Assembly: GCA_017450645.1 (NCBI GenBank)
Contig: JAFSTE010000013.1
Location: 1 to 59,784 of the forward strand
Direction of reading: 5' to 3'
Source: Eubacterium sp.
Lineage (GTDB): Bacteria; Bacillota; Clostridia; Oscillospirales; Acutalibacteraceae
Length of the DNA stretch: 59,784 bases
A program made the translations under genes and the position numbers. The notes below the pieces were generated by a model. The model was not told where the DNA came from. It saw only the letters and a list, made by a program, of their open reading frames with translations, and ran no database searches. Below, piece by piece: positions 4,809 through 31,935 of the stretch (position 1 is its first letter; every line of letters starts with the position of its first letter).

Positions 4809-5306
4809 TTAATAGAAATCCTTTTCCCACTCAATAACCTTGCCGGTTTTACCGTGTACATGCGCCTTGCCCTTGTACTTTGGCGTGGTAAATCTAACCT
4901 TATACACCTTGCAGCCGTCGTCGGTTGCTTTTTTGGTGCTTTTTATTGTAACGTTTTTAAAATACTTTTTAACAATGCTTTGTGCCTTTTTCTTTGAGAT
5001 TTTGTAGGTCTTGGTTTTCTTGACGTGGCGCACTTCCATATCAGCTTCCTTAACCTTACCCGAGGTGCCGTTAACCTTAACATCATAGTCGCGCTTTTTG
5101 TCTTTAGTTACAAACTCAAAATCCCACTCGTTGTCTTCTTTGTCCCACTCGTAATCAACAACCTTACTGCCTGATGGAACGCATTTTCTTGCAGCCTTAA
5201 GCGCTGCGTCATAATCTATCTTGCCGGCAGCCTGTGCGCTGAAAGCACAAAGCATCATTACAACTGCTAAGCAAATTGAAAATATTTTAGTAAAAGTTTT
5301 TTTCAT
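4809..5306 (-). CDS. secreted PepSY-domain protein
   Basis: 165 residues with a signal peptide (IFSICLAVVMMLCAFSAQAAG) followed by two PepSY-like units. Each has an amphipathic helix (YDAALKAARKCV; SKKKAQSIVKKYF) and a beta-hairpin ending in a G-K-V-x-E/I pattern (GTSGKVKEADMEV; GKTGKVIEWEKDF). PepSY domains are extracytoplasmic ligand- or protease-inhibiting modules; the ligand here is unknown. It is the last gene of a response regulator - histidine kinase - PepSY - PepSY operon, 16 bases after the preceding stop, and the operon terminator follows. It may buffer or present the signal read by the kinase, which is an inference from context. Confidence 0.8.
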   Translation of the reverse strand: MKKTFTKIFSICLAVVMMLCAFSAQAAGKIDYDAALKAARKCVPSGSKVVDYEWDKEDNEWDFEFVTKDKKRDYDVKVNGTSGKVKEADMEVRHVKKTKTYKISKKKAQSIVKKYFKNVTIKSTKKATDDGCKVYKVRFTTPKYKGKAHVHGKTGKVIEWEKDFY

Positions 5307-5322
5307 AATAAATCCTCCCTAT

Positions 5323-6030
5323 TTAATCGTCGTAATCATCATAATCGTCGTCATCATCATAATCATCGTCGTCGTAATCGTCGTCATCGTCGTACCTTGA
5401 TGAATGTGAATCAGACGGTTTACTTTCTTTATCAAATTCAATAATTTCACCGTCATTAGCCCTTATCTCTACTTCAAACTCCGCAGAATTGCTGTAAAAC
5501 TCAATATCATAAACAGCAAATCCGTCGTCGTAATCAAGCTTTGCTTTTGTAAACTTAACGTCGCTTGACGATACCCCTGCCCTTTTAAGTGCAATTCTTT
5601 TTGCCTTTTCGAGCGTTATATGACCTGACGGTGTTTCCTGCTTATTTGACGTTGTAGTTGTTACGTCGGACTGAGCAGTTGTTGTTGAACTATCCTCAGA
5701 CTTAGTTGTATTCAGAGCTTCACGGTCCTTTTCGTCAATCTCGCGCTTAAGAATTTTGCCGTTTTGAGCGTCAATATGATATTCATACTTTTCGCCGTCA
5801 ACTTCAAATTCAATATCAAAAATATATACTCCATCGTCTTTTTCAAACACGGACTTAGCATTTTTGATTTCGTTTTGACCGACTCCGGCGTCATTTACCG
5901 CAATGCTCAAAGCTGCGGTAGCGCCAATGCTCTGGCTCTCGGTCATTTTTGCTGAGCTTACGGCTGTGCCGAAAATGACGGCTATTGCTAAAACCGTTAC
6001 CCCTAAAATTATTAATATTCTTTTTTTCAT
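5323..6030 (-). CDS. membrane-anchored double PepSY protein with poly-Asp tail
   Basis: 235 residues. One N-terminal membrane segment (ILIILGVTVLAIAVIFGTA), then PepSY unit 1 (ATAALSIAVND...NGKILKREID), a Ser/Thr-rich spacer (TTKSEDSSTTTAQS), PepSY unit 2 (TLEKAKRIALKRAG...DGEIIEFDKES), and a C-terminal tail of about 24 residues almost entirely Asp and Tyr. The tail is encoded by repeated GAC/GAT triplets, so its length may vary by slippage, and it could bind Ca2+ or cationic peptides. It lies 59 bases after the histidine kinase. Two-component systems with PepSY partners are known in Firmicutes, but the ligand here is unknown. Confidence 0.82.
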   Translation of the reverse strand: MKKRILIILGVTVLAIAVIFGTAVSSAKMTESQSIGATAALSIAVNDAGVGQNEIKNAKSVFEKDDGVYIFDIEFEVDGEKYEYHIDAQNGKILKREIDEKDREALNTTKSEDSSTTTAQSDVTTTTSNKQETPSGHITLEKAKRIALKRAGVSSSDVKFTKAKLDYDDGFAVYDIEFYSNSAEFEVEIRANDGEIIEFDKESKPSDSHSSRYDDDDDYDDDDYDDDDDYDDYDD

Positions 6031-30720: not shown

Positions 30721-30743
30721 AGCTAAGCAATTAAAAAGCGCAT

Positions 30744-30772
30744 CGAGGTGTAACTCAGTTTGGCTAGAGTGC
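30744..30772 (+). pseudogene. truncated tRNA-Pro, 5' part only
   Basis: 29 bases identical to the first 29 bases of the tRNA-Pro at 30821 (acceptor 5' strand and the D arm), offset by exactly 77 bases. After GTGC the sequence diverges. It lies inside the transcribed leader of the intact tRNA gene. Confidence 0.85.
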
Positions 30773-30820: not shown

Positions 30821-30898
30821 CGAGGTGTAACTCAGTTTGGCTAGAGTGCCTGCTTTGGGAGCAGGATGCCGCAGGTTCAAGTCCTGTCACCTCGACCA
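30821..30898 (+). tRNA. tRNA-Pro (anticodon UGG), CCA encoded
   Basis: Acceptor stem CGAGGTG / CACCTCG, D arm with CTCAGTTTGGCTAGAG, anticodon stem CCTGC/GCAGG with loop TTTGGGA giving anticodon TGG, T arm GCAGG-TTCAAGT-CCTGT, discriminator A and encoded CCA. All stems pair. Starts with C1, paired to G72. It decodes all or most proline codons. The 3' end is the left boundary of two tandem 215-base units, consistent with use as an integration site. Confidence 0.96.
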
Positions 30899-31105
30899 CA
30901 GGCAGACGATTTATCGTCTGCCATTTTCGTGGTCGGGGTGACAGGCTTGAACCGTAGGGCACGATGCGGAGAACGCGGCGTCTTGCCGCCGCGGCTCGAC
31001 AGAGAAACAGTCCGGCGGACTGTTTCGAGCAGCGTAGGCTCTTTGTGTCGTTGTTCATATAACATAGTCACAAGTGGTAACTTCTTATTAATCCGTTATG
31101 AACAA
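30891..31105 (+). repeat. 215-bp tandem unit A at the tRNA-Pro 3' end
   Basis: It begins with CTCGACCA (the last eight bases of the tRNA), followed by terminator hairpin 30901-30922; an inverted, slightly altered copy of the tRNA T-arm and acceptor 3' segment at about 30930-30953; hairpin GCGGCG/CGCCGC (30975-30992); a ten-base hairpin GAAACAGTCC/GGACTGTTTC (31004-31026); and an inverted repeat TTGTTCATA/TATGAACAA near the right end. No coding sequence is credible; open frames here are antisense tRNA shadows. Confidence 0.85.
30901..30928 (+). terminator. tRNA-Pro terminator, unit A
   Basis: Ten-base perfect stem GGCAGACGAT / ATCGTCTGCC with a 2-base loop, then ATTTTC. The equivalent in unit B (31116-31142) has a better CTTTTTC run. 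Confidence 0.8.
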
Positions 31106-31320
31106 CTCGACCACAGGCAGACGATTTATCGTCTGCCTTTTTCGTGGTCGGGGTGACAGGCTTGAACCGTAGGGCACGATGCGGAGAACTCGGCGCTTTA
31201 CCGCCGAGGCTCGACGGAGAAACAGTCCGGGGGACTGTTTCGAGCAGCGTAGGCTCTTTGTGTCGTTGTTCATATAACATAGTCACAAGTGGTAACTTCT
31301 TATTAATCCGTTATGAACAC
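31106..31320 (+). repeat. 215-bp tandem unit B
   Basis: The same length as unit A, with fewer than ten differences. The GCGGCG/CGCCGC stem becomes TCGGCG/CGCCGA (31190-31207), a compensatory G:C to T:A change. The ten-base hairpin keeps its arms and changes only its loop from GGC to GGG (31219-31241). It is followed at 31321 by a third CTCGACCAC and a different terminator hairpin. Confidence 0.85.
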
Positions 31321-31331
31321 CTCGACCACGG

Positions 31332-31353
31332 GGGCTGGTTTTTCAACCAGCCC
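31332..31353 (+). terminator. terminator after third tRNA-end copy
   Basis: GGGCTGGTT / AACCAGCCC, 4-base loop, followed by TTATATT, directly after the third CTCGACCAC at 31321-31329. Confidence 0.7.
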
Positions 31354-31407: not shown

Positions 31408-31488
31408 CTATTTTTTATTTGAGATAACTTGAGATCACTAAAGATTCGTTGAATTGCAGTGTAGTTGCAACATAGTTGCAGTACCAAT

Positions 31489-31935
31489 TTACAATGAAAT
31501 AATACTTATGTTTTGCTTTTTAGCATATTTATATGTGTTATATGCTCCGCCGTGGTCTCTGCGTATATAAGTGATTATGTATTTGGAATTATCAACCATC
31601 CACCTGTTACGAACGGTTATCATTGCTTTATAGTGCGCCGTATCTGATTCGGCAGGGATGAGTATTTCATCATACATATCCAAATAGTATTCCTTGTTAT
31701 TTTCAATTGTGTTGCTCATTTTCGGCACAACAAGAATCAGGCGAACACCTTTATGGTTTTGCTTAACGGCTCTGACAGCACTTGCACTTAACGCATCAAA
31801 CCTTCCGTGATTGCCAACATAGAAAGTTGTTACACCCTGATTCTCAATCAAGTCCGTAACAGCTGCTATCAATTCATTTTTCAGCGTATCAGGTGCAGTA
31901 CTGTGCCCTGCAAAAGTGCAACTCTTATTACTCAT
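31489..31935 (-). CDS. SLOG-family (DUF1273-like) protein
   Basis: 148 residues. It opens with SCTFAGHSTAPDTLKNEL, continues LIENQGVTTFYVGNHGRFDALSASAVRAVKQ and ends GGAYNTYKYAKKQNISIISL. This is the pattern of small SLOG/DprA-like Rossmann proteins carried by clostridial mobile elements; they are thought to bind a nucleotide-derived ligand. The start has a poor ribosome site, and a terminator-like hairpin (31955-31975) lies immediately upstream, so expression may be low or attenuated. It sits between the tRNA-Pro repeats and an excisionase-like gene, in AT-richer DNA than its surroundings. Confidence 0.75.
   Translation of the reverse strand: MSNKSCTFAGHSTAPDTLKNELIAAVTDLIENQGVTTFYVGNHGRFDALSASAVRAVKQNHKGVRLILVVPKMSNTIENNKEYYLDMYDEILIPAESDTAHYKAMITVRNRWMVDNSKYIITYIRRDHGGAYNTYKYAKKQNISIISL

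Follow-up and report, generated by a model that had tools for sequence, protein, structure and literature searches.

Tandem 215-bp gene-free units at the 3' end of a tRNA-Pro gene in Eubacterium sp., candidate members of a family of non-autonomous integrative elements

The window, i.e. the whole stretch of DNA that was analysed, comprises 59,784 nucleotides of Eubacterium sp. contig JAFSTE010000013.1 (assembly GCA_017450645.1). It contains a tRNA-Pro(TGG) gene followed by two tandem 215-bp units and a displaced remnant of the original tRNA 3' end (Table 1). The tRNA-Pro end had been reported in the initial annotation at 30891, 31106 and 31321, in steps of 215 bases, and this spacing was reproduced. 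Tandem Repeats Finder assigned a period of 215 and a score of 815 to positions 30891-31329, and the direct 215-nt copies 30888-31102 and 31103-31317 are 96% identical. Unit 1 comprises, in order, the tRNA 3' end, a terminator-like hairpin, an antisense copy of the tRNA 3' end, a structured core and a distal inverted repeat. The antisense copy, present in each unit, was absent from the initial annotation; in unit 1, residues 30929-30945 (17 nt) are 94% complementary to 30883-30899, and the stretch up to 30953 was added by eye. By the insertion model, the terminal bases of tRNA-Pro(TGG) would belong to unit 1.

Table 1 Features of the tRNA-Pro(TGG) array, with positions in the window.
Feature	Positions	Strand	Basis
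tRNA-Pro(TGG), target gene	30821..30898	+	ARAGORN; Rfam tRNA
Unit 1, 215 bp	30891..31105	+	direct repeat, Tandem Repeats Finder, fold
Terminator-like hairpin of unit 1	30901..30922	+	inverted repeat
Antisense tRNA-Pro 3' end of unit 1 (acceptor arm, T-stem, T-loop)	30929..30953	-	
P2 hairpin of unit 1, type D core	30974..30993	+	predicted fold
P3 hairpin of unit 1, the dispersed palindrome GAAACAGTCC-loop-GGACTGTTTC	31004..31026	+	
Distal inverted repeat of unit 1, core to next tRNA end	31050..31106	+	10-nt arms, 100% complementary
Unit 2, 215 bp	31106..31320	+	direct repeat, Tandem Repeats Finder
Terminator-like hairpin of unit 2	31115..31138	+	inverted repeat
Antisense tRNA-Pro 3' end of unit 2	31144..31168	-	
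P2 hairpin of unit 2	31189..31208	+	predicted fold
P3 hairpin of unit 2	31219..31241	+	inverted repeat
Displaced remnant of the original tRNA 3' end (CTCGACCAC) with its own terminator-like hairpin	31321..31353	+	

The description of the repeat as structured and nearly intact held as well. In the register 30891-31105 / 31106-31320 the two units are identical in 206 of 215 columns and differ in nine. Seven of the nine differences fall in columns that are unpaired in the predicted fold of unit 1, as judged by comparing the two outputs by eye. The remaining two, in columns 85 and 102, pair with each other in a stem and constitute a compensated change in the P2 hairpin, from G-C in unit 1 to T-A in unit 2. 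The unit folds with an energy of -89 kcal/mol, whereas 200 shuffled sequences average -65.8 kcal/mol (sd 4.5), which corresponds to z = -5.1. At the gathering score, Rfam matched the tRNA alone in the window and no unit.

The tRNA-Pro loci of congeners were then compared, and the distance from the tRNA CCA to the downstream flank was measured in the five loci where that flank is common. The distance is 41 bp in three loci that contain no unit (G011, G069 and G034), 258 bp in a locus with one unit (G013), and 471 bp in this genome, with two. Judged by this sequence comparison, the 215-bp units at tRNA-Pro are insertions. The congeners with no unit carry, directly 3' of the tRNA, a hairpin related to that of the 31321..31353 remnant, which indicates that an inserted unit comes with a 3' end and a hairpin of its own and that those already present are displaced. 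At tmRNA, a palindrome unit occurs within 1.5 kb in 14 of 64 congener loci; truncated units are seen in L196 and L209 and variants lacking the palindrome in L224 and L235, and the remaining loci show none. Filled and empty tmRNA loci with a common sequence after the CCA are represented by L184 and L185, and nearly so by L217 and L213, part of this common sequence being the end of a larger element. The units share ~21 nt with the tmRNA gene end, and unit spacings or occupancy steps elsewhere range from 137 to 217 bp. Variation in copy number and the existence of empty sites, both envisaged in the initial annotation, were therefore encountered, the former as 0, 1 and 2 units across the five tRNA-Pro loci and the latter at tRNA-Pro and tmRNA alike. 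For the tRNA copies, neither fixation of the same two units nor scatter without a tie to tRNA ends was found.

In this genome, which is 87% complete, eight palindromes were found, and each of them is located at the 3' end of a tRNA or tmRNA gene, as had been suggested for copies beyond this locus; two are at tRNA-Pro and the others at tRNA-Val (two loci), tRNA-Thr, tRNA-Ser(GCT), tRNA-Ser(GGA) and tmRNA. The layout common to the family is a new gene 3' end, a terminator, the antisense 3' end of the gene itself, a hairpin core and the displaced original 3' end, with many units keeping just the T-arm part in the antisense copy. The correspondence between arms and target was evaluated at 68 distinct tRNA-adjacent sites that represent 27 tRNA kinds by anticodon and tmRNA, the tRNA-Phe in L144 being doubtful. 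The antisense copy attained a mean score of 25.4 with its own gene and 13.9 with other genes, and the right-hand sense copy 31.8 and 13.4, respectively; none of 2000 permutations reached either mean. The own gene was the single best match for 36 of the 68 sites on the antisense side and 48 on the sense side, for 30 on both sides and for 14 on neither.

Protein genes serve as targets too. Among 32 loci picked by eye, 18 protein-gene sites were found, and in eight of them both copies match their own gene best, namely gyrB (five sites), argJ, malic enzyme and rubrerythrin. These four genes were named by Pfam from one member each, chaperonin and GMP synthase likewise by Pfam, and rpsI, rpsM, gyrA and a relaxase-like ORF were named by eye. 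Clear arm copies were not found at the chaperonin and GMP synthase sites.

The 160 core records fall into eight types, 67 of the records adjoining a tRNA or tmRNA; cores that could not be classed were skipped, and a site present in two loci or on both strands may be counted twice. Type A cores occur at 11 tRNA or tmRNA targets as well as at gyrB, type H at 10, types B and C at six each, and type D at five. The cores at tRNA-Arg and tRNA-Met of one genome are 95.5% identical over 67 nt, and those at tRNA-Leu and tRNA-Pro reach 97% identity across genomes. Within types, over 69 sites, cores at one and the same target in different genomes have a mean identity of 0.83, cores at different targets within a genome 0.81, and cores that share neither target nor genome 0.77; descent at a target and a switch of target are thus both in evidence. 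Tandem neighbours at one target can be of different core types (L019 and L108). Type C cores lack an adjacent tRNA in 40 of 50 cases, and some of them lie in dispersed intergenic repeats (L041, L043, L126 at 2150-2200, L140 and L143) with no visible gene-end copy, which suggests that the core also spreads in another way. The tie to tRNA ends proposed in the initial annotation thus does not extend to this part of one core type.

Within the genus, the palindrome is present in 49 of 80 genomes and a unit match in 39 of 80. A scan of named genomes yielded at least 114 stretches; among the matches listed, five are alphaproteobacterial with no tRNA near, and the others belong to Clostridia and relatives, many from rumen or gut. 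Across loci L037-L180, many of which end at contig ends, 73 of 161 palindrome records have a tRNA or tmRNA no more than 700 nt upstream. With a pattern two bases longer than that used for the genus count, 6 of 394 genomes in a sample of the order matched, three of them congeners, and a wide host spread of the palindrome was rejected, as outside the genus it occurs in 3 of 390 other genomes of the order. At tmRNA in other genera of the order, the same layout was recognized in 3 of 23 loci; two of these (L327 and L345) have other cores and the third (L337) a compensated palindrome. The mirrored arms in these tmRNA units show that the layout is wider than the exact palindrome. No viral contig contained the exact core pattern, and a phage-borne element was rejected on this ground. 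In three Sphingobium records and one Parasphingopyxis record the palindrome stands directly after rpsM, a gene named by eye (e.g. L086:1773-1791), with no tRNA within 700 nt, and there it is probably a terminator. If the assignment of the units is right, a large, patchy family of tiny gene-free inserts is hosted mainly by one genus of gut and rumen bacteria.

The two arms of type A units pair in 21 of 22 sites through target-specific sequence, several with one mismatch or wobble. At the gyrB site L048 there is no pairing with the right-hand side, which breaks the pairing rule; L048, its right arm being unpaired, was left out of the type A consensus fold and counts against the hairpin model. 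RNAalifold predicts 23 pairs for the 21 type A sites, 13 of them with at least two Watson-Crick types, and the cells of this fold comprise 446 Watson-Crick, 11 G-T, 6 A-C and 20 other combinations. In the gene-sense fold, G-T exceeds A-C by 38 to 4 in type B (counted without duplicate rows) and by 28 to 1 in type C; in the opposite fold, A-C exceeds G-T by 8 to 2 and 8 to 1, respectively. For type A, the G-T and A-C counts are 11 and 6 in the top fold and 21 and 13 in the bottom fold, which gives no clear strand bias. The consensus folds include an outer stem in types A and B and none in type C, and the forked fold of types A and B rebuilds half of the T-arm, not all of it. The P3 loop is 3 nt in all 176 distinct contexts with exact arms, and in a genome of another family of the order (G103, L337) P3 reads GAAACAGTTC-GGG-GAACTGTTTC, a compensated change. 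The paired arms, the wobble bias, the constant P3 loop and the compensated change in P3 suggest that a single strand folds, be it of DNA or of RNA; a sense-strand fold suits RNA equally well as DNA.

Recombinase genes of this genome and larger elements at the same genes were also inspected. The phage integrase family PF00589 gave five matches in four ORFs, one of just 89 aa, in this 87% complete genome; three of the four were tested in NCBIfam and none scored above the integron-integrase cut-off. A XerC/D-like protein of this genome is encoded in L251. In L252, also of this genome, an integrase ORF of 394 aa precedes a copy of the tRNA-Leu 3' end (starting with TTCAAGTCCC; the tRNA was named by its match to L034 and L098), behind which stands a type A unit; this arrangement indicates that the same T-loop serves larger elements, too. 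A 10-kb element at tmRNA in genome G002 (L247:100-10300) begins with a sequence of the AAAGATAAAAATCC type and carries a relaxase-like ORF, recognized by eye, and a large-serine-recombinase-like ORF ending in the attachment site CTCCACCA. The C-terminal part of an ORF of the same type lies directly beside a type H unit in L145 (1-1047), its zinc-ribbon domain scoring above the cut-off and its Recombinase domain below. A large serine recombinase was rejected as the mover, the G002 element sharing only CTCCACCA with the gene end, as judged by eye, where the units share ~21 nt. A larger parent element (ICE or IME) carrying the unit core was not found. In one case, L038, two type B sites at tRNA-Ser flank a single 306-aa ORF (4950-5867) that matches the PADLOC candidate defence family PDC-S02 (1.8e-30) and has no match in Pfam or NCBIfam.

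On balance, each 215-bp unit is probably a gene-free, non-autonomous integrative element that is mobilised in trans through recombination of a folded strand. Locus comparison shows that insertion takes place in the T-loop/T-stem part of the target gene 3' end, that the element supplies its own copy of this end together with a terminator-like hairpin, the old end and hairpin staying downstream, and that two or more elements can stand in tandem. Because the element comes with its own 3' end and hairpin, the tRNA remains whole. Between the two 3' ends are an antisense copy of the gene end and a structured core that recurs nearly unchanged at different targets. A recombinase acting in trans, most likely a tyrosine recombinase, would recognise the element in the form of a single, folded strand; in the outer stem of this strand, the antisense copy would pair with the next sense copy and rebuild half of the target T-arm. 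The recombinase would join the folded strand to a double-stranded target, in the manner of integron integrases acting on attC and of XerC/D acting on the CTXphi attP(+). New arms would be gained when the element changes target, an acquisition suggested by the near-identical cores at different targets. The initial annotation had considered a miniature, non-autonomous, tRNA-targeting element mobilised in trans; insertion at tRNA ends is borne out, whereas the restriction to tRNA is not, since protein genes are targeted too, and mobilisation in trans would be the presumed means of movement. A more far-reaching version of this model, which we consider unlikely, is that a mobile DNA core of ~70-100 nt would recapture the end of the gene that it enters as sense and antisense arms, with one hairpin-reading recombinase serving dozens of unrelated genes. 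The self-copied arms, not a preference of the recombinase, would choose the target, and a single gene, e.g. for defence, would occasionally be carried as cargo.

A different origin is conceivable, although we judge it to fall well short of probable: the units may be microCIMEs in the strict sense, i.e. decayed remnants of larger integrative elements that keep only double-stranded att sites and accrete by means of whichever integrase acts at the gene, fold and antisense copy being by-products. In PMC7563491, the microCIMEs of Streptococcus salivarius are described as cis-mobilizable, gene-free, 130-220 bp long, in tandem with larger integrative elements at the 3' ends of rpmG, rpsI, fda and rplL, and always the most distant element from the target gene. 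The window units resemble them in their 215-bp size, the absence of genes, the att copies and the tandem accretion at a gene 3' end, and the opinion that no described family has this layout thus has to be withdrawn, microCIMEs matching both size and layout (PMC7563491). The use of the same place by larger elements, as in L252, agrees with this origin, as do the units of L095, L130 and L142, which are found past an incomplete gene end and may stand on the distal side of a larger element. However, had decay been independent, one would not expect the same structured core at 11 targets, combined with arms that vary according to the target, and four integrase-family ORFs, including that of 89 aa, face at least seven target genes in this genome. 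In contrast to microCIMEs as described in PMC7563491, the units here have a structured core common to many targets and an antisense copy of the target end, and their targets include tRNAs, tmRNA and several protein genes. Position differs as well: in the window the units immediately adjoin the tRNA, with the old 3' end and the flank behind them, and units are next to the gene at the 68 tRNA sites too, whereas PMC7563491 places microCIMEs farthest from it. Elsewhere the position is mixed: in L095, L130, L142 and L252, a unit is found past an incomplete gene end or adjacent to an integrase. In the open-access literature searched, no description of the layout was found besides the microCIMEs of PMC7563491, and the term microCIME occurs in no relevant paper beyond it.

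A reading of the unit as a structured RNA produced together with the gene, as a 3' trailer or a regulator, and duplicated in place, with mobility secondary, is improbable. The strong fold, the wobble bias toward the sense strand in two of three types and the compensated change between the two window copies would all suit such an RNA. Nonetheless, the terminator-like hairpin precedes the core, the presence of units is patchy, with empty sites and unrelated genes hit, no unit reaches the Rfam gathering score, and the P3 loop is constantly 3 nt, a small size for a hairpin loop in RNA. Across five loci that contain units, the nearest Rfam match was a partial one to permuted tmRNA, at 27.7 of 47 bits. 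A known RNA family was rejected, the loci searched giving just sub-threshold matches (E up to 5 and 1) besides tRNAs and tmRNA.

A slippage tandem duplication beside a REP-like terminator palindrome, for which the tandem arrangement and the similar palindrome after rpsM in four alphaproteobacterial records might speak, is very improbable, as filled and empty loci differ by whole units, with a hairpin unlike that of the empty site, single-unit loci carry a foreign terminator-like hairpin, and tandem neighbours differ in core type with arms that match the target gene; plain tandem duplication or a REP palindrome was rejected on the empty sites with a different hairpin and the mixed core types. 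A MITE was rejected because the ends are target-gene sequence that varies between targets and not constant terminal inverted repeats. A primer site for reverse transcription was rejected too: although the antisense copy of the window units begins with TGG, many units contain the T-arm only and protein genes are used.

The probable integrative elements share features with several known systems. Islands that use tyrosine or serine recombinases at tRNA and tmRNA genes restore the gene 3' end. They occupy the same attachment genes as the units (e.g. L252 and L247), whereas the units have neither a recombinase nor any other gene. The predicted hairpins of types A and B comprise an outer stem, a bulge, an inner stem and terminal hairpins like the integron attC, whereas the type C consensus lacks the outer stem and the gyrB site L048 does not pair. 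As with integron cassettes, units stand in tandem, and in L038 a single gene lies between a pair of sites. Unlike in integrons, the arms are copied from a host gene, and no integron platform was seen. According to PMC4792948, attC acts mainly through its bottom strand, in contrast to the wobble bias toward the gene-sense strand in types B and C. The attP(+) of CTXphi, as described in PMC3089051, has two inverted arms ~90 bp apart that form a forked hairpin in one strand, and its integration leaves one working site and non-functional copies. The inverted att-like arms of type A and B units, in their predicted forked hairpin, may be comparable to this site of the phages that use XerC/D; on the other hand, the targets here are tRNA, tmRNA and protein genes, many of them unrelated, rather than dif, and there is no phage genome. 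By analogy, the likeness to CTXphi and attC is a close parallel and not membership, because integration is not at dif, an integron integrase was not found and the gyrB site breaks the pairing rule.

Were the folded-strand account right, a patchy family of mini-elements would exist at tRNA, tmRNA and some protein genes (e.g. gyrB), its core moving and its arms tracking the target, and the manner in which site-specific elements gain new attachment sites would become testable. MicroCIMEs, so far described as decay products, would be tied to folded-strand recombination, and a small structure might place DNA at gene ends without breaking genes.

The surroundings of the array have further features. 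To its right, a 148-aa ORF on the minus strand (31489-31935) has a sub-threshold match to the YpsA/SLOG family, and short repeats at ~31418-31485 resemble integrase arm sites; the ORF and the arm-site-like repeats are possibly the remainder of a lost integrated element. A flank similar to that on the right of the array is also seen in L268, L299 and L304. On the other side, a 31-nt copy of the tRNA-Pro 5' end (30742-30772) precedes the tRNA at a distance of 77 bp. A mirror-image set of units lies upstream of tRNA-Pro in seven congeners (G069, G047, G048, G013, G042, G034 and G001), L317 giving a run of false matches to the tRNA 5' half. Each mirror-image unit consists of the tRNA 5' half and a core that begins with TGACGAAAGCGACCGCTGCC or a similar sequence, and in G069, G047 and G048 these units are in tandem.
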